Assembly: GCA_943736015.1 (NCBI GenBank)
Contig: OX031060.1
Coordinates: forward strand, 4,973,501 to 5,037,500
Source: Tridacna crocea
Lineage: Eukaryota > Mollusca > Bivalvia > Cardiida > Cardiidae
Reading direction: 5' to 3'
DNA: 64,000 nt
Both the position numbers and the translations under genes were made by a program. The notes beneath the pieces were generated by a model that was not told the origin of the DNA, did no database searches, and was given only the letters and a program-made list of their open reading frames with translations. This document shows positions 3,213 to 63,933 of the stretch, one piece after another; positions within the stretch are counted from its first letter, which is position 1; each line of letters opens with the position of its first letter.

Positions 3213-4983
3213 AGCTCACCTGAGCAGGAAGTGCTAAGGTGAGGTATTGTGATCTGTCATTGTCAGGTGTCCATCTGTCTGTCCGTCCACAATTCCTTTC
3301 AACATCTTCTTGTCCTAAACCAGAGGGCCAGTCATGTTGAAACCTGGCAGGAATGTTCCTTGGTTGAAGCTCTATCAAAGTTGTAAAAACAATTTAATTA
3401 ACCCATTAACTCTGGTTGCATTGGCAACAAAAAAGGGAAAATTTACAACATCTTTAAGAATCTTCTTGTCTGAAACCAAATAGCCCAGAGGTTTGATTTT
3501 TAGTATGTAGTATCTTTTAGTAGTCCTCTACCAAGTTTGTTCAAATGATGCCCCTGGGGTCAAAAATCACCCCGCCCAAGGGGTCACATATTTGAACATA
3601 GGAACAAAGAAGGAAAACTTTAAAACTCTTCTTCTCTGAAACTGGAAGGCGTGGAGCTATGATGTTTGGCATCTAGCATCTCTTAGTGGACCTCTACTAA
3701 GTTTATTCATATGATGCCCCTGGGGTCAAAACTGGCTTGGCTTTGGGGGCCACATGTTCGAACATAGGAACAAAGAAGGAAAACTATAAAATTCTTCTTG
3801 TCTGAAACTGGAAGGTGCAGAGCTTTGATGTTTGGCATCCAGCATCTCCTAGTGGACCTCTACCAATTTTGACCGCAAGATACCCCTAGGGTTACTACCG
3901 TTCCAGCCCTGAAGTGAAGGTCACAAGTTTGAATGTAGGAACAAAGAAGGAAAACTTTAAAATTCCTCCACTTCAAAACAGGAAGATGTGGAATTTTGAT
4001 ATTTGATATGTAGCAATTTCTTGTGGACTCTTCCAAATTTGTTTAAGTGATGCTGTTGGGGTCAAAATTGGCCCTGCCGTGGGGGTCACAAGTTAGAAGA
4101 AAGGAACAGAGAAGGAAAAATTTACAAAATTATTCTTTTCTAAAACTTGAAGGCATAGAGCTTTGTTGTTTGGTATGAAGTGAATCTGCTCTAAGTTTGT
4201 AAGCCCACCTAAGTTCAAAATTAGGTCACCTGGGGTCATAAACTAGGTATCCAGGTCAAATTAAAGTAGTTCCTTGAGGTCACTCTAGAGGCCACATTTA
4301 GTGCTCAAATGACCTAAAATTTGGTAAGAATAATTGTCAAGATAAAATATCGGATGGGTATGGATTTGGGTCACCCGGGACCATAAACTAGGTCTATATA
4401 TCAAATTAAAGTTGTACCTTGTGGGCACTCTAGAGGCCACATTTATTGCTCAATTGACTTGAAAATAAATCAGAATGTCTGTCTTGATAAAATCTCACAT
4501 GAGCATGAATTTAGGTCATGTGGGGATGTAAACTAGGACACTAGGTCAAACTAAAGGAATATCTTGTGGGTACTGTAGAGCCCACATTTATCATTCCATT
4601 GGTTATAAAATTGGTTAAAATGTTTGTCCTGATGAAATCTAGGATGGGTTCAGAATTGGGTAACCTGGGGTCATAAACTAGGTCACTTGGTCAAATTTAA
4701 GAAATACCTTGTGGGCACTGTAGAGGCCATATTTGTTGCTCAATTAACTTGAAAACTTTTCACAATGTTTGTCTTGATAACATTTCAGATCAGTTCTAAA
4801 TTGGGTCATGTTGGTGATAAATTAGGTAACTAGGTCAACTTATGGAAATTCCTTGCGGACGCTCTAGAGGCCACATTTTAGGCTCGAATGACCTAACAAT
4901 TTGTCAGAAATTTAATTATACATGTGGAGTGAATTTTGCCTATTGAATCCGGTGAGCGACCCAGGGCCATCATGACCTCTTGT
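3213..4983 (+). mobile_element. palindrome-ended tandem-repeat element, class I, complete
   Basis: It starts with the class I palindrome AGCTCACCTGAGCA...TGCTAAGGTGAG after TT and is followed by GTCTGTCCGTCC. It ends with GGTGAGCG, which is complementary to the start, then a decayed hairpin (AGGGCCATCATGACCT) and CTTG before TT. The core has two different arrays: about 167-bp units (roughly 3470-4100) and about 145-bp units (GCCACATTTA-type blocks at 4291, 4436, 4581, 4726 and 4870). No coding potential was seen. Confidence 0.65.
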
Positions 4984-9073: not shown

Positions 9074-9377
9074 TAAGGCAGGATGAAAAGCTGCCTACGA
9101 GCCGTGTTCACTGAGCATGGTCATTGAGAAAGCATGACGCATGCTTGTCACAACCATGCTAGGTGAGCACTTACAAGTAAAAAATCACATGCGCTCAACG
9201 ACCTAAAAGAAACATTGACCCTGAATATTGGTCTCACCCTACACTCACCTTATGCCTGGTAAATATAGAGCCAATACCAAATTAAAAGATAGAATTGAAA
9301 TGTTTACTCTGTAGTACAAAACCAGAGAAGAAACAGCCAAGCAAAGCAAAGGCAAGGCTGCAGACAAGCATTTTAAA
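9074..9377 (+). other. 5' flank of the IAP gene
   Basis: About 300 bases lie between a MITE and the start codon. I see no TATA box at a persuasive place and no clear splice acceptor, so the transcription start is undetermined. Confidence 0.3.
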
Positions 9378-11250
9378 ATGGAGTCAATATCAGCAGAAAC
9401 TTTATGTTCAAGTAACCAAGAGCAAGGGATCAGAATCAAGACGTTCAGAGATAACAATTCCTCCATAGCGGAGACTAAAAGAATTGAACATGGTTCAGAA
9501 GATTTAGAGGATCCCATCAAAAAACACCCAGACTGTGGCATAACAGGTGACCAGACAAAGGGAAAAGAATTTTGTACACTTAGCTTGGAACATAATAATT
9601 CTCAGGTAATAAGCTCTGGTCAAAATGTTGCATATGGTTCAGAGAGTAATATTCATCCAAATGAAAGTTTAAAAACAGATGAAGCAACAGAAAATATCAC
9701 CAATGACTGGAATGAAGACTCAAGTGCAAGGAAAACGTTATTTTCATGTTGCCAACATCTAGATATCAAAGAGAACAGACCCAGAATGAATCTTTTGCCC
9801 ATGGCTCAAACTAAAGATCCAGAAGATGGCATGACAGATGACAGGGATGTCATCAAAGTACTTTCAGCTTGTGATATGCCAGCTGACAACACACAAGCAA
9901 AAGATTTCTGTACAATTTCCTTCAATGAAAGCACATTCTTATTTATCACCTGTAGTCAATATGAGAGGGATGATGCAAGTGGTATATTGGAGGATAAAGA
10001 ACAAAGTGAAAGTGTACCAACAGATGGAGAAAGAGAGAATTGTAATAGGTGCACTGGACATGAAATTGAAATAAATAATTTAAGTGATAACATGATTGTT
10101 GACAACAAACATCAAAAAGAAGACTGTCTGTTCACAAGTGCTGGCATACAGAAAGCAGTTGAAAATCAAACTGAAGAAGCTGATGCAAGAGTATGGAAGA
10201 TCATTCACAGAAAAGATTCAGCTTTTAATTCCTTAAATGACAATGGCAGTTCAACTGATGAATCATTTGATCAGAATGAGATAGAAGACAATGTTATTGA
10301 GAGAAAAGAGAATGACAAAACTATTTGTGATGGTGTTTTTGGCAGTCAAGGGCTGATTTTACAATGGGAAGATACACAAATATCCAACGAAATAGAAGAA
10401 TTCAGACGAATGGGTAACCGACTCGGAGAATCTGACAAAACAAGCAGCATGTGCCAAGATATTTCAATTATTTTGCAAGATACAAAGCCTGACAGTGGAG
10501 TGATTTTAGCTGAGTTCAGTAGATTTTATGGGCCACATGGAGGTAGGGATGACCAGCATGTATTGCGTTACAAGATATTAGATCATAAACCAGTGAAATC
10601 CCTGAAAAGCCAGTCAAAATCACTTCCTGTGGAAAATCTTCAAATCAGGGACACTCAGTCAAGAGAAAAATTAAGCTGTGAGAAACAGAAAAAGGACAAG
10701 TATACATATATGCATAAAGTCTTACATCATGTATCATTTTTACCAGTTCCAAACCTTGAGATAGCTGTTTTCAGGAATGAAAGTGCCAAGTTCTTTGCAC
10801 CAGTACTAGATATTGTGAACCTGATAGCAGATGGAAACGACCCTGGTCCACAAGTTACCATGCAATACGAGCTCCTGAGGATATACAGTCTCCGAAATTA
10901 TCCAAAGGACAACAAACCATTTCTGATACATTTTGCTAAAGCAGGATTTTACTATGCGGCAGAAGGGGACGAGGTCATTTGCTATTGTTGTGGGCTGCGC
11001 AGGCAGTCATGGTTAGTGACAGATGTACCATATAGGATTCACCAGAGAATCAACCCCAACTGCAAATTTCTCACCAGGAATTCTGAGTTTAATGTGCCAA
11101 TTGTCTACACTGGTACAACGAAAAATCTGGACACGCTAGACAAACTTTTAGTACGGCTTGAAGAAGAGAACAAATCTGCGCAAGCGACAACAGATGCAGA
11201 GGGTGGGGATGAATTATCGGAATATGTTCCACCTCAGGCTTTGTCTGGAG
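9378..11250 (+). CDS. IAP-like multi-BIR protein, exon 1 (low-complexity N-terminus plus BIR 1)
   Basis: Exon 1 gives 624 codons plus one base, ending at the donor GGAG/GTAAGA. The start ATG sits in AAAATGG, a good context. Residues 1 to about 490 are polar, acidic and apparently disordered, with three loose repeats (near residues 58, 170 and 242; e.g. GKEFCTLSLE and AKDFCTISFN). Residues about 497-570 form a BIR domain: KAGFYYAAEGDEVICYCC, then W, then H-x6-C. The zinc ligands C535, C538, H555 and C562 have the canonical C-x2-C-x16-H-x6-C spacing. BIR domains bind caspases or partner proteins in apoptosis and innate immunity. Exons 2-5 continue it in phase to at least 745 codons. No RING, UBA or CARD is seen in the window, so the 3' end is missing and the exact family member is open. 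Confidence 0.85.
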
Positions 11251-11367
11251 GTAAGACATAGTATACTTTTCTAACTCATTGGTAATCTGTTACCAATAGT
11301 GATTTTTGTAGAAAATAGAGATATTTGTAGAAAATGTCAAGTTGTTAATTAAAAATACTGAACTTAA

Positions 11368-12640: not shown

Positions 12641-13692
12641 AGCTCACCTGAGCACGAAGTGCTCAGAGTGAGCTATTTTGATAGTGCTGTGTCTGCCGTC
12701 CTTCGTGCGGCGTCCGGCGTCCATCGTCAGTCGTCTGTCGTCATCTTTTACCTTGTGTACGCTCAAGAGGCCATATTTTCAGTCCCATACCCATGAAACT
12801 AAGTCAGAATGTTTGCCTCGATGATATCTCGGACGTGTTCAAAAATGGGTCATGTTGGGTCAAAAACTAGGTAACGAGGTCAAATATTAGAAAAACCTTG
12901 TGTACGCTCTGGAGGCCAAAGTTTCATCAAAAACTCTTGAAAGTTGGTCAGAATGTTTGTCTTGATAATATCTTGGATGAGTTTGAAAATGGGTCATGTC
13001 AGGTCAAAAACTAAGTCACCAGGTCAAATGTTAGAAAAACCTTTTGTACGCTCTACAGGCCACATTTTTAGTCCAAAACTCTTGTAAGTTGGCCAAAATG
13101 TTTGTCTTGACAATATCTCGCACAAGTCTGAAAATGGGTCATGTTGCTTGAAAAACTAGGTTACCAGGTCAAATCTTAGAAAAACCCTTGTATACGCTCT
13201 GGATGCCACATTTTTAGTCCAACACTTTTGAAAATTGGTAAGAATCTTTGCCTTGATAATATCTTAAATGAGTTTGAAAATGGGTTATGATGGGTCAAAA
13301 ACTAGGTCAATAGGTCAAATGTTATAAAAACCTTGTGTATGCTCTGCAGGACACATTTTCAGTCTGATACTTGTGAAACTTGTTCATAATATTTGTCTTG
13401 GTGATACCTTGAATAGGTAATGTGGAGTCAAAAACTAGGTCACTGGGTCAAATATTGGAAAAACCTTGTGTAACTCTAGAAGCCACATTTTCTGCCTGAT
13501 TCTTGTTCAAACTTGGTCAGAATGTTTGTTTTGGTAATGTCTCAAAAGAGTTTGATAATGGGTAATTGTCGGGTCCAAAACTAGGTCACTTGGTCAAATC
13601 TTAGAAAAACCTTTTGTACGCTGTAGAGGCCACATTTTCAGCCCAATACTCATGAAATTTGGTCAGAATGTTCATCCTCGTGGCCCGCTTGT
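12641..13692 (+). mobile_element. class I palindrome-ended element with 145-bp array
   Basis: It opens with the palindrome AGCTCACCTGAGCACGAAGT...GTGAGCT after TTTT, followed by a GTCC/CGTC-rich tract. The core then has seven units keyed by CCTTGTGTACGCT at 12751, 12896, 13040, 13186, 13331, 13464 and 13610, mostly 144-146 bp apart. The 3' end is eroded: only CCCGCTTG before TT remains, without the inverted GGTGAGC or a hairpin. Confidence 0.65.
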
Positions 13693-16252: not shown

Positions 16253-17710
16253 AGCTCACCTAAGCACGAAGTGCTCAGAGGGAGCTATTGTGATCAATCA
16301 CCGTCATTCGGCGTCCGTCGTCCGTCCGTCCATCGTCCGTCCGTCGGTCGTCCGTTCACATTTCCTTGTTTACACTCTAGCATCATGAAATATCAACCAA
16401 TCAGCACCAGACTTGGTCAAAGTGTATATGACCATAAGATCTCGGATGAGTTCCATTATGGATTTAATCGGACTAGAATATCCGGAGTTATTTGCCTTTG
16501 AATTAAAGCAAATGCTATATTTCATTTTGTTTACACTCCAGCATCTACAAATATCAACCAATCAGAGCCAAACTTAGACAAAATATATATAACCATAAGA
16601 TCTCGGATGACTTTGATTATGGGTCTCATCGGATCAGAACGACCAGAGTTATTTGCCCTTGAATTAGAGAAATTGTTATATTTGACTTTGTTTTCACTCT
16701 AGCATCTGCAATTATTAACCAATCGACACCAAACTTGGACAAAATATACGTGACTATAAGATCTCGTATGAGTTTGATTATGGGTGTAATCGGACCAGAA
16801 CAACTGGAGTTATTTGCCCTTGAATACGAAAAATTGCTGTATTTCACTTTGTTTACACTCTAGCATCTACAAATATCAACCAAGTAGTTCCAAACTTGGT
16901 CAAAAGATATATGACTCTAAGATCTCAGACGAGTTCGATTATGGATGTAATCAGACCAGAACAACTGGAGTTATTTACCCTTAAATTAGAATATTTAGTC
17001 CAGAGCATATCTTTGTCATCTCCAGTCCAATTGACTTGCAACTTGGCAGTTTGTGTTTGTTGCAATAATACGGAGTGCAGTGTGAAAGAACCATTACTCT
17101 ACTTCATACTGTCTATGAGTTATTTCTCTTTGATTGAAATTTTTACAGCATTTTCTGCTTGTCTGGAATATATAACTTTGTCATCTACAGCCTGAACATC
17201 TTTAAATTTGACATGCATGATTGTTGAAATATTATGGAGTACATTGCACAAGAACCATAACTTCTTAGCACAAATTTTGAGTTATTCCGCCTTTGACCTT
17301 CATTTTTATAGCATGTCTTGCTTGTCCAGAGCAAAACTTTTTCATCTTAAGGAGGAATGACTTGAAATTTGGTATGCTTATTTGTTGCAATATTTGAAAG
17401 TGCAGTGCCTAAGAATTGTAACTGTACCTTGTGCTGTCTTTAAGTTATTTTCCTTTGAATGTCATTTTTACAGCATTTAGTGCCTGCCCTGAATATAACT
17501 GTCATCTTAAGTCAGAACGACTTCAAACTTGGTATGCATGTTTGTTGCAATATTATGCAGTACAGTGCGCAAGAACAATAACTCTACCTAGCGCGAAGTT
17601 TGAGTAATTCCACTTTGATTTTCATTTTTATAGTACTTCTTGCTTGTACGGAATGGATCTCCAAATTTTCAAGTTAAATTGCAACAATGTGCTGCTCTTG
17701 TTTCATTATC
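16253..17710 (+). mobile_element. class I palindrome-ended element with 161-bp arrays
   Basis: It begins AGCTCACCTAAGCACGAAGT...GGAGCT after TTT, then GTCCGTCCGTCC. Four units keyed by TTGTTTACACTC (16367, 16527, 16688, 16849) are about 161 bp apart. A second array keyed by GTTGCAATA (17059, 17223, 17384, 17544) follows with spacing of 160-164 bp. The end GCTGCTCTTG before TT resembles the end of the class III element at 2290. The second array occurs again at 23865-24541. Confidence 0.6.
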
Positions 17711-18664: not shown

Positions 18665-19384
18665 TCACGACTTTGGAATGAGATAAATGCCCACTAAACA
18701 TTTTCGTTTTATGTGTAAATACTGCGAAACCGCTTTAGCATTCATAGTACCACTTACATGATCGCTATAAATATGGTTAATGTTTTTCAGGTCTTGCTGG
18801 AAATGATAGATGAAATTTGCGTTTTCTCTAATAGTTTGCCTCGGTAACCTGAAATAGTTTTGTGAAAGGTAAACGCAATCAACATTACTATGCCTTCCAC
18901 GAATGTAGTAGCACTCACACTTATTTTGCTTTTCTAAAAGTAAATCGTCAAAAATCATTAATTTTTTGTTTTCTGAACTTAGCTCTCGTGGGTCAGGTAC
19001 ATCTCCCGCAGTTTCAAAAAAACTACACTTTATATCCGATTTATTTTTTAACGTTTTTACCCATTCTTCAATCAAAGCTGTTGGTGATACTTTTGAATTC
19101 TGTATTTCATCTCGCAGTTTAAACAATCTTAAAATACCCTCTTTCGGTAGCCTTTCTTCAAAGGCTTTTTTAAGTATTCAATATTCCGGTCGAAAAAGAC
19201 TTTTGCCAAAAACACATAACTCGTTGTAGTCCAACCAACCCGGTCTAAGCAAAAGATTAAGTAGAAGAGTGATTTTACAACATCCTGATTTACCTACGAT
19301 TAACCCTCTGATACTGTTTGGTAAAAGAGGGTTATTAAATCACTCCGATACAGCTTCATTCCATGATAAATCAGTTACATTCAT
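18665..19384 (-). pseudogene. Maverick FtsK/HerA-type packaging ATPase, broken
   Basis: A leftward frame from an ATG near 19384 to the stop at 18665 matches the packaging ATPase of Mavericks. A Walker A-like segment (GKSGCCKIT) is degenerate at the glycine and threonine positions. A Walker B-like segment (LMIFDDLLL) is intact in the second half. Two in-frame stops interrupt it, one soon after the start and one between the Walker A region and the downstream open part (18665-19126). It lies head to head with the PLA2/integrase frame, as expected for a Maverick block. Confidence 0.75.
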
Positions 19385-19416
19385 CTTTTTATATAACTTT
19401 TTTTCTATTATATAAA

Positions 19417-20818
19417 ATGTATTGCGTTAAATGTAAAACAGTTACTGATACGAGTAACATAGAATATACTGTTAGTAAGAATAGAAGAAATATGAGACGA
19501 GGAAAATGTGTGGTTTGTGGAACAACTAAAACCCAGTTTATTAAGGCGCAGGAAGGAAAAAAGGGCGGGTCAGTTTTAAACAAAATGATTAACCATATGC
19601 CTTTCGAGATGCATATCCCAGGTCACAATTTTACGGGACCAGGCACTAACCTTACAAAAAGATTAAACCCCGATTTAACTTGGAAGAAATGGAGTAAACC
19701 AATCGACCGTGTTGATCATGCCGCCTATAACCATGACGTCTGTTATTTAAAACACGATGATACCAAAACTCGTAATGCTGTATGCGATAAAAATATGTTA
19801 GCAGAGCTAAAAGGTATTGAAAATCCCACTTTAAGAGAGAAAATGGAAAGAGGAATTGTGTCTACCTTAATTGGAACTAAGGCAAAGTTTTGGATGGGGG
19901 TTAAAAAAAAATTCAGCATGATAAATTTAGCAGAAGAATTACACAAGCCCGTAAAGAGAAAATTTAAGAAAAGGAGAGTCGAAGTAAATGGTATTGATAG
20001 GATTTGGGCTGCAGATTTAGTAGACATGCAGGCGTTTTCTAAATTTAACCGGGGCGTAAAATATCTTCTCGCTGTTATTGACATCTTTTCTAAATACGGA
20101 TGGTTGATACCATTAAAAGACAAAACGGGAAAGTCTGTCGCTAGAGTATTTTCAAGGAGAGAAAACCGGAGAAAATGTGGGTGGACAAGGGTAAAGACTT
20201 TTATAACAAGGAAGTTAAAGACTCGATCGAATTGTATTCTACCGAGAATGAAGAAAAATCGTGCGTAGTTGAAAGATGGATTAGAACAATGAAAGAAAAA
20301 ATGTGGAAATATTTTTCCGCTAACTCTACGAGCGTTTACATTAACGTGTTACAAGACCTTGTTAAAGAATATAATAACACGAGACATTCTTCTATTAAGA
20401 TGACGCCAGTAAATGCTAGTAAAAAGGAAAATGAAACTAAAGTTTGGAGAAATCTTTACCCCGATCATTTCGAAATAAGAGATACAAAACCTAAGTTTTC
20501 CGTTGGAGATAAAGTAAGAATAACTAAAAAGAAAAAGACTTTTGAGAAAGGTTATACTACTAGATGGACCGAAGAGGTTTTTACAGTTTCTGAGGTAAAA
20601 AATACGAAACCCGTAACGTATAAAATTAAAGACCTTAATGGGGAAGAAATACAAGGTACCTTTTATGAACCCGAGCTACAAAAAACGAGTCAGAAGTTGT
20701 ATAGGATAGAAAGAGTTATTGAAAAGGAAAAAATAAATCGTTAGTAAAGTGGAAAGGTTATTCCGATGAGTTTAATTCGTGGGTTGATAATAATGATATT
20801 GTAAACATTTTAGATTAA
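19417..20818 (+). pseudogene. Maverick zinc ribbon - PLA2-like - integrase - chromodomain frame, broken
   Basis: One reading frame first encodes a CxxC...CxxC zinc ribbon. A PLA2-like domain follows, with the calcium-loop-type GPGTNL and the catalytic HD pair in NHDVCY. The start of a retroviral-type integrase core comes next (first aspartate in WAADLVDM). A frameshift near 20160-20175 moves the rest into another frame that carries the second catalytic region (VDKGKDFYN) and the glutamate region (NEEKSCVVERW). A second frameshift near 20734 precedes a short chromodomain-like end (LVKWKGYSDEFNSWV), stopping at 20816-20818. Such integrases insert Mavericks, and PLA2-like domains occur in virion proteins of several DNA viruses. 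PLA2 and integrase in one frame may be native or the result of a lost stop. Confidence 0.8.
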
Positions 20819-23864: not shown

Positions 23865-24541
23865 CTGAATTTGGCATTTGTGTTTGTTGCAATAATGCAG
23901 AGTGCAGTGTGAAAGAACCATAACTCTACTTCATACTGTCTATTAGTTATTTGTCTTTGATTGTCATTTTTACAGCATTTTCTGCTCGTCTGGAATATAA
24001 TTATCTTTGTCATCTACAGCCTTAACATCTTCAAATTTGATATGCATGATTCTTGAAAATTTATGGAGTGCAGTGCACAAGAACCATATTTCTTCCTAGC
24101 TCAAATTTTGAGTTATTTCCCCTTTGAACTTCATTTTTATAGCATTTCTTGCTTCTCCAGAGCCAAACTTTGTCATCTTATATAGGAATGACATGAAATT
24201 TGGTATGATTATTTGTTGCAATATTTGGAAGTACAGTGCACAAGAATTGTAACTCTACCTTGTGCTGTCTTTGAGTTATTTCCCTTTGAATGTCATTGTT
24301 ACAGCATTTAATGCCCGTCCAGAATATAACTTTGTCATCTCAAGCCAGAACGACTTAAAACTTGGTATACATGTTTGTTGCAATATTACGTAGTACACTG
24401 CGCAAAAACAATAACTCTACCTAGGACAAATTTTGTGTTATTCCACTCTGATCTTCATTTTTACAGTATTGCTAGCTTGTATGGAAGGGAACTTCGAAGT
24501 CTCAAGTCAAATTGCGACAATTTGCTGCTCTTGTTTCATTA
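23865..24541 (+). repeat. 161-bp tandem array, second copy
   Basis: Units keyed by GTTGCAATA match the array at about 17040-17700 closely and in the same order, including the ending GCTGCTCTTG before TT. It starts directly after the LINE fragment, so the palindrome-bearing end is missing. Confidence 0.8.
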
Positions 24542-24937: not shown

Positions 24938-24979
24938 CATTTGCTGCTTGGTACTCAGGTGAGCGATGGTCCTCTTGTC
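24938..24979 (+). mobile_element. class I element 3' end
   Basis: GGTACTCAGGTGAGCGAT is the inverted counterpart of the class I 5' palindrome and is followed by GGTCCTCTTG. The first arm of the usual terminal hairpin is deleted. It is fused directly to a different array on its right. Confidence 0.65.
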
Positions 24980-25760
24980 TCATCAATAGCTTCAATCCTA
25001 TTGATTTTGAAAAAAATCCAACAAACAGTATGGATAAAGTAGCCATTTCAAGTTGAAAACTTTCTTTACTTGTTTACGCAATAAAGTCTGCATGCTTGGT
25101 CAGAATTTTATGAAACTGGCTCAGTTTGTTTATCTTATCAATAGCTTTAACCCTATTGATTTTAGAAAGAATCCAACAAACAGTATGGGAAAAGTAGCCA
25201 TTGCAAGTTTAAAATTTCCATTTCTTGTTTACGTGATAAAGTCTGTCTTCGTGGTCAGATTTCCCTTAAACTTGCAGAGTTTGTTTATCTTATCAGTATC
25301 TTCAACCCTACTGATTTTGAAAAACAAAACCAACAAACAGTATGGGAAGAGTAGCCTTTTCAAGTTGAATACTTTCTTTTCTTGTTTACGTGTTAAAGTT
25401 GCCATTTGAGATCAGATTTTCATGAAACTTGCATAGCTTGTTTACATCATCCCTAGCTTGAACCCTATCGATTTTGAACAAAATCCAACAAACAGTAGAG
25501 GAAAAGTAGCTAATTCAAGTTGAACATTTTCATTGCTTGTGTACATGATAAAATATAAATTTAGATGTATTGACATAATGAAGTCCTCATTTTTGGTTGG
25601 ATATTCATGAAACTTGCCCAGTCGCTTTGTCTTATCAGCAGCTGGAACCCCATTGATTTTGGGAAAAAAATCTGACAATCAGCATGGGAAAAGTAGTAAT
25701 TCAAAGTTGAAAACATTCAGAATATATGTGTTGTGTTGCTATAGAAATGCAATACAGCAT
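24980..25760 (+). repeat. about 155-bp tandem array, class II core
   Basis: Units carry TTGTTTACGCAATAAAGTC, then CTTATCAATAGCTT, then AACAGTATGGGAAAAGTAG. The same unit fills the complete class II element at 56083-57201. Neither terminus is present here. Confidence 0.8.
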
Positions 25761-29000: not shown

Positions 29001-29623
29001 GAGTGACATCAGGGATCGGCTAGGTCCTGTACTTGCAATACACCACTTGGCCCTAGGTTGGGCTAAACGGGAGTTCAGGAAGGCCCGTCCTGATGAATCG
29101 GCTGGTCATGCCTTGCCCTAAGACATCTTATATACTCTTTCTTTTACATCCTTTTCTCAATTAAATTTACCATCTTCTCCACATAATTATATCACATTCT
29201 TTTCAGGTATTATATTCCTTATTCAGTCCTAGAAGGCGGTGGCTCATTGGTCAATCGGGTGAAAGTTTTTTGGTATTTGACTGACATTTGTAACCTCTTT
29301 ATGATGGTCTAAGCTGCGGGAATGCATCTGTCCAGTCTAGCCCTTTCATACCGAGTATACCACTAATGTATCCCTGTCATGGTCTGCGAATGGGTTTTCC
29401 CCGGACCATGTCCCCTTGTTGGGCTCCGTGGCGGATGGGGAGCATCGGTGGTGAAACTTTTCACACAAACATGGCGTCTCAAAAAAGGCCAAGCTCAATG
29501 AAAGCAAGCGCCCTCTTTCAGACAGAGACTCTGAAACAGAACCTTCAATTTCTACCTCTTTTCACTCTCCACGTTTTATTGTCATTCAATCCCAAGATCC
29601 TTCGAAACCAGTCACAAAGCTCT
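29001..29623 (+). pseudogene. LINE 5' leader and ORF1 N-terminus
   Basis: A leader of about 430 bases has no long frame. A frame then reads KKAKLNESKRPLSDRDSE and, further on, FIVIQSQDPSKPVTKL, ending at the foldback insertion. Joining it to 35838 continues the frame (KLSPFKIEKQ), so this is the start of ORF1. The leader probably contains the internal promoter usual for full-length LINEs, but no motif was identified. Confidence 0.65.
29614..29623. repeat. target-site duplication of the foldback element, left
   Basis: ACAAAGCTCT occurs here and at 35828-35837, directly at both ends of the foldback element. Confidence 0.85.
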
Positions 29624-29660
29624 GTAGCAACCAGTTTTGCAATAAAAACGAGAATTGCAA

Positions 29661-32600
29661 TAAATTATTGCAAAACTCGTGGCGATGACAGAAACTTTAT
29701 TACATTTGACTTCACAACCAGTTTTTCAATGAAAACGAGAATTGCAATAAACTCTTTGTATGGACCATACTTGATCGTTTTCTAGTCAAAACCAAATGAA
29801 AATGCAATTTAATGTTCAATGGGACTATGTAAGACAGAAATTAAGTTACAGAAAGTGCGCTTCAAAGATCAGTAGGAACATTTCAGGCTAAACACTATTA
29901 ACGCTGAAATCGTTGGAAACCGTCATAAAGTCTATTAGATGACGTAAACAGCATGAAATTTGGATCGTTTCAGAAACAATATGTCTTAAACCAATATTTC
30001 AGTAAATTATTGCAAAACTCGTTGCGATGCCAGGAACTTTATTACATTTGACTTCACAACCAGTTTTGCAATAAAAACGAGAATTGCAACAAACTCATTA
30101 TATGGGCCATATTTGATCGTTTTCCAGTCAAAACCAAATCAAAATACAATTTACTGTGAAATGGGACTATGTAATACCTAAATTAAGTTACAGAAAGTGT
30201 CTTTCAAAGACCAGTAGTAACATTTCAGGCTAAATAATATTAAGGCTGAAATCATTGGAAACTGTCATAAAGTCTATTAGATAACGTAAACAGCATGAAA
30301 TTTGGATCGTTTCAGAAACAATATGTCTTAAACAAGTATTGCAGTAAATTATTGCAAAGCTGTTTGCGATGACAGGAACTTTATTACATTTGACTTCACA
30401 ACCAGTTTTGCAATAAAAACGAGAATTGCAAAAAAACTCATTATATGGACCATATTTGATCGTTTTCTAGTCAAAGCCAAATTCAAATACCATTTAATGT
30501 TAAATGGGACTATGTAAAACATAAATTACGTTACAGAAAGTGTGCTTCAAAGACCAATAGGAACATTTCAGGCTAAACAATATTAAGGCTGAAATCATTG
30601 GAAACTGTCATAAAGTCTATTAGATGACGTAAACAGCACGAAAGTTTGATCGTTTTAAGAACAAGATGTCTTAAACCAGTATTGCAGTAAATTATTGCAA
30701 AACTCGTTGCGATGACAGGAACTTTTTTACATTTGACTTCACAACCAGTTTTGCAATAAAAACGAGAATTGCAATAAACTCATTATATGGACCATATTTG
30801 ATCGTTTTCCAGGCCAAACCAAATTGAAATACAATTTAATGTTAAATGGAACTATGGAAGGTGAAAATTAAGGTACAGAAAGGGCGCTTCAAAGACAAAT
30901 AAGAAAATTTCAGGCTAAACACTATTAAGGCTCAATTCGCTGGAAACTGTCATAAAGTCAATTAGATGACGTAAACAGCATGCAATTTGGATCGTTTCAG
31001 AAACAATATGTCTGAAACCAGTATTTCAGTAAATTATTGCAAAACTCGTTGCGATGACAGGAATTTTATTACATTTGATTTCACAACCAGGTTTGCAATA
31101 AAAACTCATTAAATGGACCATATTCGATCGTTTTCTAGCCAAAACCAAATTCAAATGTTACAAAAATTAAAGTACAGAAGGTGTGCTTCAAAGACCAGTA
31201 GGAACATTTCAGGCTAAGGACTATTAAAGCTGAAATCGTTGGAAACTGTCATAAAGTCTATTAGATGACGTAAATAGCATGAAAGTTTGATCGATTATGA
31301 AACGATATGTCATAAACCAGTATTGCAGTAAATTATTCCAAAACTCGTTGCGATGATAGGAACTTTATTACATTTGACTTCACAACCAGTTTTGCAATAA
31401 AAACGAGAATTGCAACAGACTCAATATATTGACCATATTTGATCGTTTTCTAGTCAAAACCAAATTCAAATACAATTAAATGTTCAATGGGACTATGTAA
31501 GACAGAAATTAAGTTACAGAAAGTGCGCTTCAAAGATCAGTAGGAACATTTCAGGCTAAACACTATTAACGCTGAAATCGTTGGAAACCGTCATGAAGTC
31601 TATCAGATGACGTAAACTGCATGAAAGTGTGATCGTTTCAGAAACGATATGCCAAAAACCAGTATTGCAGTAAATTATTGCAAAACTCGTTGCGATGCCA
31701 GGAACTTTATTAAATTTGACTTCACAACTAGTTTTACAATGAAATCGAGAATTGCAACAAACTCATTATATGGACCATATTCGATCGTTTTGTAGTCAAA
31801 ACCAAATTCAAATACAATTTAATATTCAATGGGACTATGTAAGGCCTAAATTATCTTACAGAAAGTGCACTTCAAAGACCAGTAGTAACATTTCAGGCTA
31901 AACTTTTTTAAGGCTGAAATCATCGGAAACCGTCATAAAGTCTATTAGATGACGTAAACAGCATGGAATTTGGATCGTTTCAGAAACAATATGTCTTAAA
32001 CCAGTATTGCAGTAAATTATTGCAAAACTCGTTGCTATGACATGAACTTTATTACATTTGACTTCACAACCAGTTTTGCAATGAAAACGAGAATTGCAAC
32101 AAACTGATTATATGGACCATATTTGATCGTTTTCTAGTCAAAACCAAATTGAAATACAATTTAATGTTAAATGGGATTATGTAAGACCGAAATTAAGTTA
32201 CAGAAAGTGGGGTTTAAAGACCAATAGGAACATTTCACGCTAAGCACTATTCAGACTTAAAACATTGCAAACTGTCATAAACTGTATTAGATGACGTAAA
32301 CAGCACGAAATTTGGATCGTTCAGAAACAATATGTCTTAAACCAGTATTGCAGTAAATTATTGCAAAACTCGTTGCGATGACAGGAACTTTATTACATTT
32401 GACTTCACAACCAGTTTTGCAATAAAAACGAGAATTGAAAAAAACTGATTTTATGGACCATATTAATTTTGATCGTTTTCTAGGCAAAACCAAATTAAAA
32501 TACAATTTAATGTTAAATGGAACTATGTAAGGCGTAAATTAAGTTGCAGAAAGTGCGCTTCAAAGACCAGTAGGAACATTTTAGGCTAAACACTGTTAAG

Positions 32601-32990
32601 GCTGAAATCCTTGGAAACTGTCATAAAGTCTATTAGATGACGTAAACAGCATGAAATTTGGATCGTTTCAGAATCAAAATGTCTTAAACAGTATTGCAGT
32701 AAATTATTGCAAAACTCGTTGGGATGACAGGAACTTTATTACATTTGACTTCACAACCAGTTTTGCAATAAAAACGAGAACAGCAACAAACTCCTTAAAT
32801 GGACCATATTCGATCGTTTTCTAGTCAAAACCAAATTCAAATACACTTTAATGTTAAATGGGATTATGTAAGACCTAAATTAAGTTGCAGAAAGTGTGCT
32901 TCAAAGACCAATAGGAACACTTCAGGCTAAACACTAAAAAGGCTTAAATCATTGGGAACTGTCATAAGTCTATTACTTAACGTAAACAGC
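29661..32990 (+). repeat. 342-bp tandem array, left foldback arm
   Basis: TAAATTATTGCAAAACTCGT recurs at 29661, 30003, 30345, 30688, 31030, 31329, 31671, 32013, 32353 and 32700. Spacing is 340-347 bp, except one 299-bp unit with an internal deletion. Each unit also has GATGACGTAAACAGCATGAA and TTACATTTGACTTCACAACC. No coding content. Confidence 0.92.
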
Positions 32991-33033
32991 TTATTAGAAA
33001 AACAAACAGATAGAGAGAAAAAGAAGAAAAAAA

Positions 33034-33110
33034 TGCACTCCGTGGGATTTGAACCCATGACCTCGTGCGCAGACATTAAGGAATTGGTGCTCTACCGACT
33101 GCGCTTCAGG
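33034..33110 (-). pseudogene. tRNA-like sequence (decayed tRNA-Lys or SINE head)
   Basis: On the minus strand there is a clear B box (GGTTCAAATCCCACG) and an A box-like GCAGTCGGTAGAGC. The loop TCCTTAA would give a CTT anticodon (lysine). The acceptor and anticodon stems do not pair well, so I read it as a pseudogene or SINE head rather than a working tRNA. It lies at the inner edge of the left foldback arm. Confidence 0.5.
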
Positions 33111-33189
33111 GCAGTCACGAACGTAACGGTACCAGTAATATATATAAAGTCTTACAGATGTCTCCGAAGGTTTGTAAAATGCCCTCTTG

Positions 33190-33315
33190 GCGTAAGACAA
33201 TGCGATAACGTGCACAGGAGGTGAAAGTAGACACAAAGACAAGTTTGTAATATTCCACCTAGGCGTAAGACAATGCGATAACGTGCACAGAAGGTGAATT
33301 AGACATAAAGACAAG
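33190..33315 (+). repeat. 73-bp direct duplication
   Basis: GCGTAAGACAATGCGATAAC at about 33190 recurs 73 bases later, followed each time by GTGCACAG and AAAGACAAG. Confidence 0.8.
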
Positions 33316-33759
33316 AAAAAACATCAGTCATTGATCAATAACATGATCAGTGATAAATGATTTGATTTTTGTATGATAGATAAACAGCTGTAGGTAGTAT
33401 TTGCTTCGTTTGGGTATTAATTGAGGAACCATACTACTCAACTTTTGCTAAGCTTCAGAAGTTATTTTTTTGTTTATATTATTACAAGTATAAAACAGAT
33501 TTCTTTCCAATTTTTGAAAATTACGATTCAGCAATGTTTTGAGAAAGTCCCCCGACATGAATCCGTGTCGACTAATCCGTTACAACTCGTCCAGGTAGCA
33601 TGGGAAGCATACACCTGTATATTTTTCTGTTTTTGATGGTATTTGTTTACAAAAGTGACGTCATAGGGGTAGAGGTCTATAACAGGTCTTTTATAATTTC
33701 CGGCTTATCGTCATTAGTTGCTTACATTTCTTACACCTGTCACTTCGATATGGTGAATG

Positions 33760-34160
33760 CTAACATTGGGCGGCATTACGGAGAAGCAAAATTATGGAGA
33801 GCTGTAGGGATGGTACAGCAGGAGCCACACACAGCCAGGTTGGTGCGGCGCTTGATGTACACCACACCGTCATCAGCAGAGCCTAGGAGAGATGACGGCT
33901 ACACCCACCAGGAGGCATACTGGAGGTCCACAAAAGGTCACAACGCCAGTTCAGGATCGGTTTTTGGTTGTTCAGGCACGTCGTGCGAGGTTTTCGACAG
34001 AAACTTCTCTTCGAAATGACCTTCCTAATGCTGCGTGTTTCCACGCAGACGATACGTAGAAAGCTGCATAAAGGTAATTTGCGGTCGAGAAGCCCTTGCA
34101 TACGTATCCCCTTGAGGCAACGACATCGCCAGGCGAATGGACCAGGGAGCATGCACGGTG
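33760..34160 (+). pseudogene. Tc1-like transposase fragment in the foldback centre
   Basis: In one frame the sequence reads KVTTPVQDRFLVVQARRARF and in the next VSTQTIRRKLHKGNLRSR. These are the paired helix-turn-helix blocks of Tc1-type transposases (TTP-x-QDR, then S-x-QT-x-R-x-L). A frameshift separates them, and the DDE catalytic domain is absent. The 10-bp target duplication of the host element does not fit Tc1 (TA), so this is more likely a captured or nested fragment than the foldback element's own enzyme. Confidence 0.6.
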
Positions 34161-35827
34161 GAAATGTTCATACTGGTCTTTAAAGCGCACTTTCTGTAAC
34201 TTAATTTCGGTCTTACATAGTCCCGTTTAACATTAAATTGTATTTTAATTTGGTTTTGACTAGAAAACGATCAAGTATGGTCCATATAATGAGTTTGTTG
34301 CAATTCTCGTTTTTATTGCAAAACTGGTTGTGAAGTCAAATGTAATAAAATTCCTGTCATCGCCACGAGTTTTGCAATAATTTACTGCAATACTGGTTTA
34401 AGACATATCGTTTCTGAAACCATCCAAATTTCGTGCTGTTTACGTCATCTATTTGACTTTATGACAGTTTCCAACGATTTCAGCGTTAATAGCGTTTAGT
34501 CTGAAATGTTCCTACCGGTCTTTTAAGCGCACTTTCTGCAACTTAATTTCTGTCTTACATAGTCCCATTTAACATTAAATTGTACTTTAATTAAGAAATA
34601 ATCTTCTTTCTATCGTGGTATATCGTTCAATAAACCACGTTGTGAGTTATGAGGCGCAATGAATAACCCACTCGGGCTATCGCCCTCGTGGATTATTTAT
34701 TGCGCCTCATAACTCACAACTGTGGTTTATTGAACGATATACCACGATAGAAAGAAGATTATTTCGATTCTAACGTGACTAATTCTTAATGAAAGGAAAA
34801 CAAGTTCAAACTTAGAGTAAAAACGCGGATGAAGATTATGTTCCATTGAATAACTCACTCATTGAATGACGTCACTCGCTATAGGATGACGTCACTCTAC
34901 ATGGATTGTTGCAGATTTTACCACGTTTTCCTTGCACTGTGTTTATGGAGCCAAAGTCGCGTGTCATGTTAGAATTTGGTTTTGACTAGAAAACGATCGA
35001 ATATGGTCCATTTAATGAGTTTGTTTCAATTCTCGTTTTTATTGCAAAACTGGTTGTGGAGTCAAATGTGATAAAGTTCCTGTCATCGCAACGAGTTTTG
35101 CAATAATTTACTGCAGTACTGGTTTAAGACATTTTGTTTCTAAAACGATCCAAATTTCATGCTGTTTACGTCATCTAATAGACTTTATGACAGTTTCCAA
35201 CGATTTCAGCGTGAAAAGTCTTTAGCCTGAAATGTTCCTACTGGTCTTTGAAGCGCACTTTCTGCAACTTATTTAAGGTCTTACATAGTCCCATTTAACA
35301 TTAAATTGTATTTTAATTTGGTTTTGACTAGAAAACGATCAAATATGTACATATAATGAGTTTGTTGCAATTCTCGTTTTTATTGCAAAACTGGTTGTGA
35401 AGTCAATTGTAATAAAGTTCCTGGCATCGCAACGAGTTTTGCAATAATTTACTGCAATACTGGTTTAAGACATATCTTTTCTGAAACGATCCAAATTTCG
35501 TGGTGTTTACGTCATCTAATACACTTTATGACAGTTTCCAATGATTTCAACGTTAATAGTCTTAAGCCTGAAATGTTCCTACTGGTCTTTGAAGCACACT
35601 TTCTGCAACTTAATTTAGGTCTTACATAGTCCCATTTAACATTAAATTGTATTTGAATTTGTTTTTGACTGGAAAACGATCAAATATGGTCCATATAATG
35701 AGTTTATTGCAATTCTCGTTTTTATTGCAAAACTGGTTGTGAAGTCAAATGTAATAAAGTTCCTGTCATCGCAACGAGTTTTGCAATAATTTATTGCAAT
35801 TCTCGTTTTTATTGCAAAACTGTTTCT
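34161..35827 (-). repeat. 342-bp tandem array, right foldback arm (inverted)
   Basis: Units are the reverse complement of the left arm (e.g. CTCGTTTTTATTGCAAAACT and TTCATGCTGTTTACGTCATC). About four units are present, interrupted at 34592-34975 by a separate element. Confidence 0.9.
34592..34975. mobile_element. insertion in the right arm with a 169-bp hairpin
   Basis: The repeat unit is interrupted after TACTTTAATT and resumes at AATTTGGTTTTGAC. The first 169 bases (34596-34764) form a near-perfect hairpin with arms of about 70-80 bases, beginning AAATAATCTTCTTTCTATCG. The tail contains two TGACGTCA octamers (34866 and 34885). It looks like a MITE-type insertion with a possible AATT duplication. 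Confidence 0.65.
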
Positions 35828-35837
35828 ACAAAGCTCT

Positions 35838-37243
35838 CTCCATTTAAAATTGAAAAACAAATATCTAGCATCCTTGGAAATCCAAAATCTGTTTAAAAAA
35901 ACTGAAAGACCAGACTCTCCTTGTTGAATGTCTCACTAATCAACAAGCACTGAATCTTCTGAAAAACACGAAATTCTTTGATATATCTGTTAAATTTTTT
36001 CCACATCCTTCACTCAATTCTTGTAAAGGAGTAATAAGATGCAAAGAACTTGCATACTGCAACTCCTTACAAGAAATTAAAGACAACCTAAAACAACAAG
36101 GTGTATCCGATGTTAAACGGATGTCTGTACGCAGAGATGGAGAGCAGAGACTTACAAACACATACATTTTAACATTTTCTTCACCTGTTCTTCCAAACCC
36201 TATCAAGATAGGCTTTCAAGTAGTTAAAGTAGATGTGTATGTGCCGAACCCCTTGCGATGTTTTAAATGCCAGCGGTACGCCCATCACATCAGTAAATGT
36301 CCTAACCAAGAAACATGTTCTAAATGTGCTCATCAAGGACCTGACCGTGACAGCACTAGTTGTTCAAATCCTCCTCTTTGTATTAATTGTAAGTCTCAAC
36401 ACTCTACTTTTTCAAGAGAGTGTCCTGTATGGAAGGAAGAAAAAGAAATCATTTCCATTAAATACAATAATAATGTTAGGTTTCCAGAGGCAAGGAAAAT
36501 ATTTGAACAACGCAAGAAAACCTCTTCTGGTCCTAATTGTGCAAGGAAAATATTTGAACAACGCAAGAAAACCTCTTCTGGTCCTAGTTGTGCAGGTGTT
36601 GTTAGCTCGTCAACTGAAAAGGATGACTGCAGCACTTGTAAAATTCTCGCGAAAGTTCTACTTCAAATATTTCCTGATGTAGCTTCTGAGCTGATAGAAC
36701 TTCTCCCTCCATCCACCTTGTCCAAACTAATTCCTGACTCTCCATCTGCATCTAAAACAAACACAACCTCTTCGACATCCTCAAAACCCACAAACTCTCA
36801 AAATAGTTATTCTCAAAAACTTCAAAGCCATCTACACCTTCACAAAATTCTTCACGGAAAACTCCAAAGCCATTTACCTCTTCACAACCACCTCCTAAGA
36901 AACCAAAACCTCCATCTTCACAGTCTACAACAAAACCTAACCTCTCATCTAAGGATAACAATCCCAATCATACACCCCGACCTCCTAAAAGGTCTTCTTC
37001 TAAATCCAAACCACAATCTAGAGATACCCAAGGGTCTTGTGAAATCACAGTCAAAGTTAATGATCCTGTCCCTACCTCCAACAGATTTTCAGAGCTAGAG
37101 GACATGGATGCAGATGCTGAAAATCTGGAAGGTGAGGCTTCAGATTCAAAAGCCCCTATCTGGTCCACTTCCAAAGATCTTTGGAACAAGGATTTTCACG
37201 CCTGGCAATCATTCAAACCCGAGACATCTGTAATTAAATCTTA
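35838..37243 (+). pseudogene. LINE ORF1 (nucleic-acid-binding protein) with three zinc knuckles
   Basis: It continues ORF1 after the foldback element. An RRM-like region (GVIRCKELAYCNSLQEIKDN) is followed by three knuckles: CFKCQRYAHHISKC, CSKCAHQGPDRDSTSC and CINCKSQHSTFSREC. A 51-bp in-frame duplication (36490-36591, ARKIFEQRKK twice) follows, then a long S/T/P/Q-rich tail and an acidic end. An indel in an A-run near 35890 and a shift near 37000 break the frame. ORF1 proteins coat LINE RNA and assist target-primed insertion. Confidence 0.75.
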
Positions 37244-45236: not shown

Positions 45237-45389
45237 ACAAACAAAAGGCACTGAACACTATTGTATAACATTGTTTTATTTGGTCAGACACTACAAGCCA
45301 GCGCTTTGTTTAATCAAGTACCGACTAGGCACTTCCACATGTAACGTTACCACTTATGTGTTTGAGGATATTAGTACATCAGCTTATGG

Positions 45390-45545
45390 CACAACACAAT
45401 TGGTACAACTTATTGGTACAACTTTGTTGGTACAACATACTGGTACAACTTACTGGTACAACACTATTGGTACAGCTTATTGGTACAACGTAATTGGTAC
45501 AACTTACTGGTACAACGTAGATGGTACAACGCTATTGGTGCAAGA
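45390..45545 (+). repeat. 15-bp tandem repeat near the Gypsy 3' end
   Basis: The unit TTGGTACAACNTANT occurs about nine to ten times with small differences, forming a minisatellite in the element's non-coding 3' region. Confidence 0.9.
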
Positions 45546-56082: not shown

Positions 56083-57201
56083 AGCTCTACTGGTTGAAAG
56101 CCAGCAGAGCTTATGTCATGGTGTGGTTTCCATTGTCCGTCCGTCTGTCTGTCTGTCCGTCCGTTAGTCTTTTTCTTGTTTACACAATAAAATCTTCATT
56201 TCTGGTCAGATTTTCAGAAACTTACACAGTTTGTGTATCTCATAGATAGCTTTAACCCCATTGATTTTTGAAAAAATCCGACAAACGGTATGGGAAAAGT
56301 AGCCATTTCAAGTTCAGAATTTCTATTTCTTGTTTATGCGATAAAGTCTGTATTTCTGGTCAGATTTCCATGAAACTTGCAGAGTTTGTTTATCTTATCA
56401 ATAGTTTCAACCCTATTGATTTTGAAAAAAATTCCTACAAACAGTATGGGAAAAGTAGCCATTTCAAGTTGAAAACTTTCATTTCTTGTTTACGCAATAA
56501 AGTCTTTATTTTTGGTCAGATTTCCGTGAAACTTACACAGTTTTTTTTATCTCATCAATAGCTTTAACCCTATCTATTTTGAAAACATCTGACAAACAGT
56601 ATGGGAAAAGTGACCATTTCAAGTTTAAAATTTCCATTTCTTGTTTATTTGATAAAGACTTCATTTTTAGTCAGGTTTCCATGAAACTTGCAGAATTTAT
56701 TCATCTTATCAATAGCTTCAACCCTATCGATTTTGAAAAAAATCCAACAAAGAGTATGGGAAAAGTAGCCATTTCAAGTTGAAAAACTTTCATTTCTTGT
56801 TTACGCGATAAAGTCTTCATTTTTGGTCAGATTTCTGTGAAACTTGCACAGTTTGTTTATCTTATCAATAGCTTTAACCCTATCGATTTTGAAAAAAAAA
56901 TCTGACAAACAGTATGGGAAAAGAAGCCATTTGAAATTGAACAATTCCATTGCCTGTTTACATAATAAAGTATTTATTTGTGATCAGATTTTATTAATTT
57001 TTCAGCTTGTTTATCCCATCAATAGCTTTTTAACCCTGTTGAGTTTGAAAAAAAATCAACAAACAGTAATGGAAAAGTAGCCATTTTTAGTTGAAAATGT
57101 CAATTTTTATGTCTTTTTGCGTAATGAATTCCTATGTATGCTTTATTTAAAAGCAAACTCTTCGCCAGTAGAGCATATTCAGGCCCTTCAGGGCCTTCTA
57201 G
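56083..57201 (+). mobile_element. class II palindrome-ended element, complete, 155-bp array
   Basis: The 5' palindrome AGCTCTACTGGTTGAAAGCC...AGAGCT is followed by GTCCGTCCGTCTGTCTG. Six units keyed by CTTGTTTA start at 56175, 56329, 56485, 56640, 56796 and 56953. The 3' end is GCCAGTAGAGCA, the inverted counterpart of the start, then the hairpin AGGCCCTTCAGGGCCT and CTAG before TT. This is the best-preserved member in the window and defines both termini. Confidence 0.8.
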
Positions 57202-58889: not shown

Positions 58890-59860
58890 CGATTGTAGTT
58901 CCTATAGAAACCAGAAACCCATCGTCCAAGGAGCATAATAGCCTCCGACGAAACCCCCTGTATTGCTAAATCGGTTGCTCTTCCAATTCTAAAGCTATGT
59001 GTATGATACCTTCCTACAGTTTGTAGATTAGACGCAATAACACACTCTTCTAAGAATGCGGAGAATTGAGACCTAGTGACCGTGGATCCGCCACGATGTA
59101 CAAACAGCGGACCATTAACAGCTGGCCGTCAAGCTAGAAATTCATTCAGTGCCCATACTGGGCAGATCAACACATCTTGCTTTGGTAACTTAAGAGTGCA
59201 TTGTTTACCGTACTGATTTGTCTTGAAAAAGTGCAGACAGATAAAAACATGATTATTGGGGATAATGGACAATCTGATGCTGCCACTACCCTCTGATGCT
59301 CCAGATTTGAGGGAACGACTAGCTCACTTGCCCTAAAAAGCCCGAAATACGCTAAGGTAAACAAGGAGGTAAACAATGCCATCTCATAATCGTCATAAGC
59401 CACCTGTGGCAGGACGGGGCATATAGTTTCCCGATTTGAGGGAACGACTAGCTCACTTGCCCTATAAAGCCCAAAATACGCTAACGTAAACAAGGAGGTA
59501 AACAATGCCATCTCATAATCGTCATAAGCCACCTGTGGTAGGACGGAGCATATAGCTTCTAGGGAACATCTGTTAAGGGGGCCCGTGTATCTACTAATAA
59601 ACAACTTCTGCGACAGCCCTCAAGTAGCTTTCTTAAAACAAATATTTCAGTTAAATGGTCATGGCCATACAGCTTGTGAAAATAGTTTAGCTCTGCAAAG
59701 TAAGTAGTAATGGTTCTCGGGGATTTACCATTTTCAAAGCAGTATGCAATAAACAGAACTAGGTGCACACATGGTATTGGCCAGGTATTACTTAAACTAT
59801 AACTAGATCTAAATTTTGCGAAAGCCCTCTGTGCCACTACGTAGATCAGACGAGTATTTG
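58890..59860 (-). pseudogene. tyrosine recombinase of a DIRS/Ngaro/Crypton-like element, broken
   Basis: The N-terminal core-binding domain has SNTWPIPCVHLVLFIAYC and GKSPRTITTYFAELNYFH. The catalytic domain has the first arginine block LFTLAYFGLFRASELV and further on HTHSFRIGRATDLA (H-x2-R), then LLGRWVSGFYRNY, which supplies the GRW and a candidate nucleophile tyrosine. A 129-bp in-frame duplication (43 codons, starts 59304 and 59433) repeats the arginine block. Stops near 59130 and a frame change near 59560 break it. Such enzymes insert circular DNA by site-specific recombination. Confidence 0.75.
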
Positions 59861-63643: not shown

Positions 63644-63933
63644 TTAACTTCCTGTGTCTTTATTGAGGAGTTATTGTCCTTTTTTTCTTAACTTTAATTG
63701 CTAGGTCTATCGGTATGTGAGGGTCTTGGCCATCCCCCAACACACCTTACATATCAGTGTCAGTAAACATTTTGTTAGTAGTACATGTTTACAATATCGT
63801 TATGTTTCATTGTGTTAAAAATTTCAAAATCTTTTCTAATTCTACAATTTCCCCATTCCAGAATTTCAAGTTAAATAATTTATAATTGATATGGCAAAAT
63901 ATTGATCATGTCGTGACAACAAAGCTCTTTTTA

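Follow-up and report, generated by a model that had tools for sequence, protein, structure and literature searches.

The window analysed was a stretch of 64,000 nucleotides from the bivalve Tridacna crocea (assembly GCA_943736015.1, 1.05 Gb, 31 contigs; contig OX031060.1, G000:C5:4973501-5037500). A palindromic element of 6,208 bp with arms of 342-bp satellite units was located at 29623-35830, where it interrupted ORF1, an open reading frame (ORF) of a long interspersed nuclear element (LINE). The tips were set from other copies in the genome. An earlier note, made from the window alone, had placed the element at 29624..35827; the element itself was real and its boundaries had to be corrected. 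The features of the locus were as follows.

29471..29616, plus strand: 5' piece of LINE ORF1 of the interrupted host copy, frameshifted near its own start
29617..29622, plus strand: left target-site duplication AAGCTC, an exact 6-bp match to 35831-35836 with the tips at TGTAG/CTACA
29623..29714, plus strand: left end with the tip TGTAGCAACCAGTTTTGC.., the 87-bp terminal unit and the hairpin CGAGAATTGCAATAAATTATTGCAAAACTCG
29715..32988, plus strand: left arm, made of nine full direct 342-bp satellite units and a partial tenth
32989..34160, no strand: middle with a tRNA-like stretch, a 73-bp duplication and a Tc1-like transposase fragment
34161..34592, minus strand: inner part of the right arm, inverted 342-bp units
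34593..34972, no strand: secondary insert in the right arm, 380 bp with a long palindrome, AATT immediately before and after
34973..35739, minus strand: outer part of the right arm, inverted 342-bp units
35740..35830, minus strand: right end with the 87-bp terminal unit and with a tip that reads TGTAGAAACAGTTTTGC on the reverse strand, two changes away from the family tip
35831..35836, plus strand: right target-site duplication AAGCTC
35837..37098, plus strand: 3' piece of LINE ORF1 with a further frameshift after NPKSV

Both arms started with the same 87-bp terminal unit, corresponding to the 342-bp unit minus 255 bp, and continued in full units. The left-arm units measured 342, 342, 343, 342, 299, 342, 342, 341 and 346 bp in this order, followed by the partial tenth. 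The right arm held three inverted units and a partial fourth, one unit being split by the 380-bp insert, in agreement with the ten direct and about four inverted units counted earlier. The longest ungapped pair of the inverted arms extended over 476 nt with 93% complementarity. Matching outermost sequence had been reported at the two ends only, and the outermost 50 bp indeed occurred nowhere else in the window, the next best places having at least 11 mismatches. The joint that makes the 87-bp unit formed a hairpin with z-scores of -2.6 at both ends versus -1.5 and -1.3 in two internal stretches. The left-arm units L1 (29715-30056) and L6 (31383-31724) had a 116-bp identical patch and eight minority variants in common, an apparent sign of conversion or block duplication within the arm. 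As judged by eye, a palindrome whose arms measure some 75-80 bp made up around half of the 380-bp insert. In the middle, the 73-bp duplication was located at 33170-33315 and the frameshifted Tc1-like fragment at about 33764-34165. The domain HTH_Tnp_Tc3_2 was found on one of four Tc1-like pieces with an E-value of 5.2e-6 and 27.1 bits, which is below the curated cut-off of 31.5. The tRNA-like stretch at about 33030-33111 was recognised by eye only, and ARAGORN and Rfam gave no call.

Joining the flanks without the element gave a LINE ORF1 frame that was open through the junction, KPVTKL being directly followed by SPFKIEKQISSILGNPKSV, with KPVTKL and SPFKIEKQIS in one frame. The comparison with LINE ORF1 relatives used 120 listed sequences of 453 protein relatives. 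In the alignment, the junction was spanned by 114 of these 120, and inserted residues were present there in none; KL preceded the junction in 86 and SPF followed it in 106. The earlier claim that removal of the element restores a continuous ORF1 is borne out by this exact empty site. Named organisms among the listed relatives were Gigantopelta aegis, Haliotis cracherodii and the sea spider Nymphon striatum. A molluscan origin of the element is plausible. Locus L016 was considered as an insertion into the same LINE site, as its last flanking bases were alike, but was rejected when tblastn gave no LINE in the 300-base flank.

Further copies were frequent in the genome. The exact 23-bp tip TGTAGCAACCAGTTTTGCAATAA was present 111 times, with no match for the reversed-pattern control. 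The 49-bp hairpin end gave 119 matches with up to two mismatches (60 forward, 59 reverse; control 0), and a 17-bp tip pattern gave 129 (control 1). Nearly all listed tips read TGTAG, and the other copies nearly all started with TGTAGCAAC and finished with GTTGCTACA. Among 100 tips listed, 58 formed 29 facing pairs less than 20 kb apart, 217 bp to 18 kb long. This suggests a family of about sixty elements, as estimated from facing pairs, a count that misses ends with more changes. When the first 160 bases served as query, 758 candidates passed the first look and 40 of them were scored. Twenty stretches, representing 19 loci, were fetched on the basis of good tip matches. As a check, the earlier note had proposed to look elsewhere in the genome for these ends facing inwards and flanked by 9-10-bp direct repeats; such loci were found many times, with a duplication of 6 bp. 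The characters of the foldback class, long inverted tandem-repeat arms together with dispersed copies, precise ends and a target duplication, were present.

Insertions were also detected at the protein level. A search with the frame running from the flank into the end identified four proteins, P0121-P0124, among five candidates. The contigs encoding them were separate and measured 5.2 Mb, 2.7 Mb, 185 kb and 491 kb. The starts of the proteins looked unrelated by eye and passed into the translated element end within one codon of the boundary; P0122 departed from the unit early. Since an open frame can pass from the flank into the end, a chance ORF reported by gene-prediction software can reveal a further insertion. 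The second frame of the end had no candidate in the protein database. Patterns for the unit DNA had no matches in a collection of viral contigs and none in a collection of genome contigs, and 18 stretches of viral contigs matched a LINE ORF1 pattern, none of which was confirmed.

The length of the target duplication was derived from the copies in the genome. In the window, ACAAAGCTCT was present on both flanks at 29614-29623 and 35828-35837, which had been read as a 10-bp duplication. The same 10-mer was also present at 63919, and its complement at 4157. When window positions were paired at random, keeping spacing and slack the same, 7 of 20,000 pairs reached a match of at least 10 bp. As the tips of the other copies read TGTAG, the window tip takes the T at 29623 and the ACA at 35828-35830, and the 10 bp shrink to the 6 bp AAGCTC; the remaining 4 bp are tip bases matching the target by chance. 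An 8-bp duplication with GTAG tips, suggested by the window alone, was dropped once the other copies were compared. Across 32 facing tip pairs, 28 had an exact 6-bp duplication, two had 7 bp and two had none; duplications of 8-10 bp did not occur. The first 15 elements with both tips read, including the window and the L011/L012 pair, contributed 14 of the 6-bp duplications and one of 7 bp (L028). Another 14 came from 17 further pairs, together with one 7-bp case, the L014 element, and the two pairs without duplication. L014 had been left out of the first 15, its apparent right end being an internal unit, and its true end was included in the later 17.

The targets were GC-centred and RAGCTY-like, as judged from the GC core, the flanking A or T and the purine and pyrimidine counts in 29 duplications. 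These were the 28 exact cases plus that of L032, a miniature inverted-repeat transposable element (MITE), unpooled by strand. Position 3 was G in 28 of 29 and position 4 was C in 26, both together in 25, while the GC dinucleotide accounted for 3.3% (0.033) of the window. All 25 GC-centred duplications had A before or T after the GC, and six had AGCT. A purine occupied position 1 in 23 of 29 and a pyrimidine position 6 in 18 of 29; the orientation of an element being arbitrary, some of the target symmetry beyond the GC core remains forced. Ten of 11 hand-picked single-end flanks had GC at the same place, and some of the flanks left out had no GC (for example CACATC and AGGTCT).

The copies differed mainly in arm length and middle. 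Arms comprised about 3 to 23 units and were often unequal, some stretches covering part of an arm only. One centre was common to ten loci (L013, L016-L022, L024 and L025), with 114-120 of 120 bases alike to L013 and an arm-to-arm gap of 8-16 bp in BLAST. Nine of the ten consisted of arms only as far as read, with L016, L019 and L024 extending beyond the stretch; L022 had a 1.6-kb insert. L015 also consisted of arms only but had another junction, and the junction of L026 differed as well. L017, L018 and L025, on three contigs, were 98.7-99.1% identical over the central 2 kb and had the different duplications CAGCCT, AAGGTA and ATGCTC; because of the near-identical centres and different duplications they appear to be recent moves. 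Parts of the window middle, about 84-94% identical, were present in L009, L010, L011, L014 and L023. Six elements including that of the window had middle parts with the 73-bp duplication and a degenerate Tc1-like piece in common, so that this middle is inherited in part of the family. Since a Tc1 enzyme makes a 2-bp TA duplication, the Tc1-like piece was taken as a presumable passenger. The right arm of the 18-kb copy on C13 contained a nested LINE with a 1,133-codon stop-to-stop frame (L012:708-6677). At locus L031, two tips pointed the same way at a distance of 1.1 kb and the flank of one was arm sequence, so that one element may lie within or in tandem with another.

MITE-like versions of 66-251 bp carried the same tips. 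Exact duplications flanked L032 (118 bp, TAGCAA) and L086 (240 bp, CAGCAT), and L042 (251 bp) had the 7-bp duplication GTGGCTA. Five of six duplication bases agreed in the small versions L029, L030, L041, L090 and L100, of which L029 and L030 share flanks and L100 reaches this value only with the last tip base changed. L085 agreed in four of six bases. L039 and L034 agreed in three of six, which is no support. L048 was a single 58-bp end between two GGGCTC and looks like a remnant after losing the rest.

A search with an internal satellite unit gave 1,154 first-look candidates; the best 40 were scored and gave 41 matches. All 41 listed array matches were located within 12 kb inside a tip, although lower-identity stray arrays could exist among the lesser matches. 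The 87 nt of the unit that copy the end were better kept than the rest. In 356 internal units from 21 stretches, they diverged from the consensus by 3.1% versus 6.2% elsewhere, a contrast attained in 12 of 20,000 permutations of the columns and in 11 of 342 rotations. The most conserved rotation was 4 nt off the end copy. For the window units alone the values were 3.4% versus 6.7%, a contrast attained in 22 of 20,000 permutations and in 30 of 342 rotations. Single positions of the three TTGCAA boxes differed in 0-2.8% of the 356 units. The end sequence of the element, with three TTGCAA boxes, recurs in the 342-bp units, and a role of the arms as arrays of putative enzyme-binding sites is therefore probable.

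The element is best explained as a non-autonomous DNA transposon of foldback form, to which we assign a probability of about 0.88. An enzyme supplied in trans would cut at the TGTAG..CTACA tips, and the whole palindrome would be inserted into a GC-centred RAGCTY-like site with duplication of 6 bp, presumably by cut-and-paste. The arms would grow and shrink through unequal exchange or slippage, and each jump would deliver a preformed satellite array to another locus. The earlier idea of a foldback family whose arms act as a mobile satellite is supported, the array not having been seen as ordinary satellite among the 41 listed matches. Several observations weigh against this explanation. No transposase was found among ORFs of at least 90 codons in the gaps of the long stretches, which were inspected by eye and leave most of the family not read through. 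These gaps held a nested LINE and LINE- and Tc1-like pieces, and nothing like an integrase or a Mutator-like element (MULE). No autonomous copy, as envisaged earlier, was recognised in the stretches read. Among 40 short stretches at other tips, which comprised arrays, MITEs and remnants, 13 were checked for ORFs by eye and had no recognisable element gene; L035, L040, L087, L088 and L102 leave the family sequence early. Two of the 32 facing pairs had no duplication; the left flank of one resembled arm sequence by eye, and its tips may not be partners. C3:1528238 and C16:30634624, two of the 28 exact cases, have flanking sequence in common and may be copies of a single event instead of independent insertions. 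The choice of stretches by good tip matches favoured young copies, and the conservation of the boxes could reflect gene conversion with the ends.

An ordinary satellite array inverted by rearrangement inside the LINE would account for plain tandem repeats in the arms, and many tandem arrays were present in the window. The exact empty site, the same ends at dozens of loci, the 6-bp duplications and the position of all 41 listed array matches inside tips rule out a plain rearranged satellite for practical purposes. The transposon reading leaves a choice of enzyme. A Mutator-type foldback element with 8-10-bp target duplications would have the same architecture of long inverted tandem-repeat arms and variable middles, as in Tetris, Muta1 and Tm1, and the window alone shows a 10-bp repeat. 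However, 8-10-bp duplications occurred in 0 of 32 pairs, and the strong target preference contrasts with Tm1 and Muta1, for which none is reported. The Mutator-like enzyme of the earlier note is not supported given 28 of 32 duplications of 6 bp, and we regard this alternative as very improbable. The 6-bp duplications and TG..CA tips speak against Mutator and favour an enzyme that resembles an integrase or that of Dada.

An enzyme of the Dada, hAT or P type is unlikely. Dada duplications of 6-7 bp, TAGCTC in some families, resemble the 6 and rarely 7 bp observed here, and the sub-terminal GTGCAAT/ATTGCAC repeats of Dada-U1 resemble the TTGCAAT boxes. Dada elements, however, are reported to lack terminal inverted repeats and to insert in multicopy small-RNA genes, whereas the present pairs, picked for inverted tips, have such repeats and the window copy lies in LINE ORF1. 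hAT and P enzymes make duplications of about 8 bp; that of Galileo is 7 bp. Mobilisation by an integrase-like DDE enzyme of the Ginger/GingerRoot/IS3EU/Polinton group is a serious possibility, if short of even odds. The tip TGTAG fits the TGTNR termini of Ginger and its TG..CA ends, but Ginger1 and Ginger2 have duplications of 4-5 bp (PMC2836005, available part), and the 4-bp CCGG or CCGT of Ginger1 was not found. According to the available part of PMC10045372, GingerRoot has a 6-bp duplication and ends that are mostly TA..TA and occasionally TG..CA, IS3EU usually has 6 bp and TA..TA, and Polinton has 6 bp. The 6-bp duplication is therefore shared with all three, and the TG..CA ends are not those of IS3EU and are allowed for GingerRoot. 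The virus-like gene set of Polinton/Maverick was not recognised by eye among the gap ORFs of at least 90 codons, and no integrase gene was linked to these tips. Ginger, GingerRoot and IS3EU include autonomous, transposase-bearing members, and none of these families is described as foldback or satellite-armed in the accessible portions of PMC2836005 and PMC10045372. Some other enzyme class is somewhat unlikely.

No print match for the family was found in the open PubMed Central (PMC) literature, which does not cover Repbase and Dfam. It is closest to Tetris of Drosophila virilis in form and satellite link. As described in the accessible part of PMC4079207, Tetris is a foldback transposon without coding capacity whose arms have about 220-bp tandem repeats in variable number. 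It has the related MITE-like DAIBAM, is a source of satellite arrays and was suggested to be of Mutator type. Tetris differs in that its arms have a separate flanking domain on the outside and its duplications measure 8-10 bp (same source), whereas the present family has the array directly behind a 92-bp end, 6-bp duplications, GC-centred targets and many near-all-satellite copies of arms only. Muta1 and mosquito MULEs likewise have a terminal palindromic motif followed by tandem repeats, and their non-autonomous copies are truncated in the arms and heterogeneous in the middle; they differ in 12-bp repeats, 145-bp arms, 8-9-bp duplications and a transposase of their own (PMC5225508, in part). 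In Galileo of the P superfamily the inverted ends are long and internally repeated, and sites bound by the transposase were found in the tandem repeats; it differs by its THAP/P-type transposase (PMC3688188, in part), to which no link was found in the family. Pacific oyster Helitrons also carry satellite arrays through a bivalve genome, but they are rolling-circle elements, and inverted arrays with a 6-bp duplication are not described in the available section of PMC8268682.

Elsewhere in the window, Polinton-like fragments at 18665-20744 included one ORF resembling a packaging ATPase and a stretch resembling an integrase, both recognised by eye, and an ORF between the fragments had DUF5679 and phospholipase A2-like domains. 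A 648-aa open frame at 9315-11261 contained a BIR domain. Tandem arrays had units of 145 bp (4224-4878 and 12750-13672), about 155 bp (24978-25552 and 56172-57097), about 160 bp (17116-17630 and 23883-24470) and about 166 bp (3487-4173 and 61781-63095). These four array sizes, each at two places and alike by eye, are perhaps other dispersed satellites. An array of the 13-bp unit ATTGGTACAACTT was located at 45383-45543, and a 129-bp direct duplication at 59300-59559 in a minus-strand ORF that by eye resembled a tyrosine recombinase fragment.

The foldback transposon might, more tentatively, be a self-contained mobile satellite, a giant near-perfect palindrome of one satellite repeat in which each unit is a spare copy of its own enzyme-binding end and which is moved by an integrase-like enzyme; we consider this rather less than an even chance. 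If true, this foldback family would belong to neither the Mutator nor the P group, a case without precedent in the literature examined, and every stage between a 66-bp MITE and a 10-kb mobile satellite would be present in one genome. The 6-bp duplications also show that the foldback form is not limited to enzymes giving longer ones. How satellite DNA reaches new places is a long-standing question. With the satellite unit, end-sharing MITE-like elements and transposed palindromes in one genome, and with datable insertions, the step from MITE to mobile satellite can be traced directly in this family.

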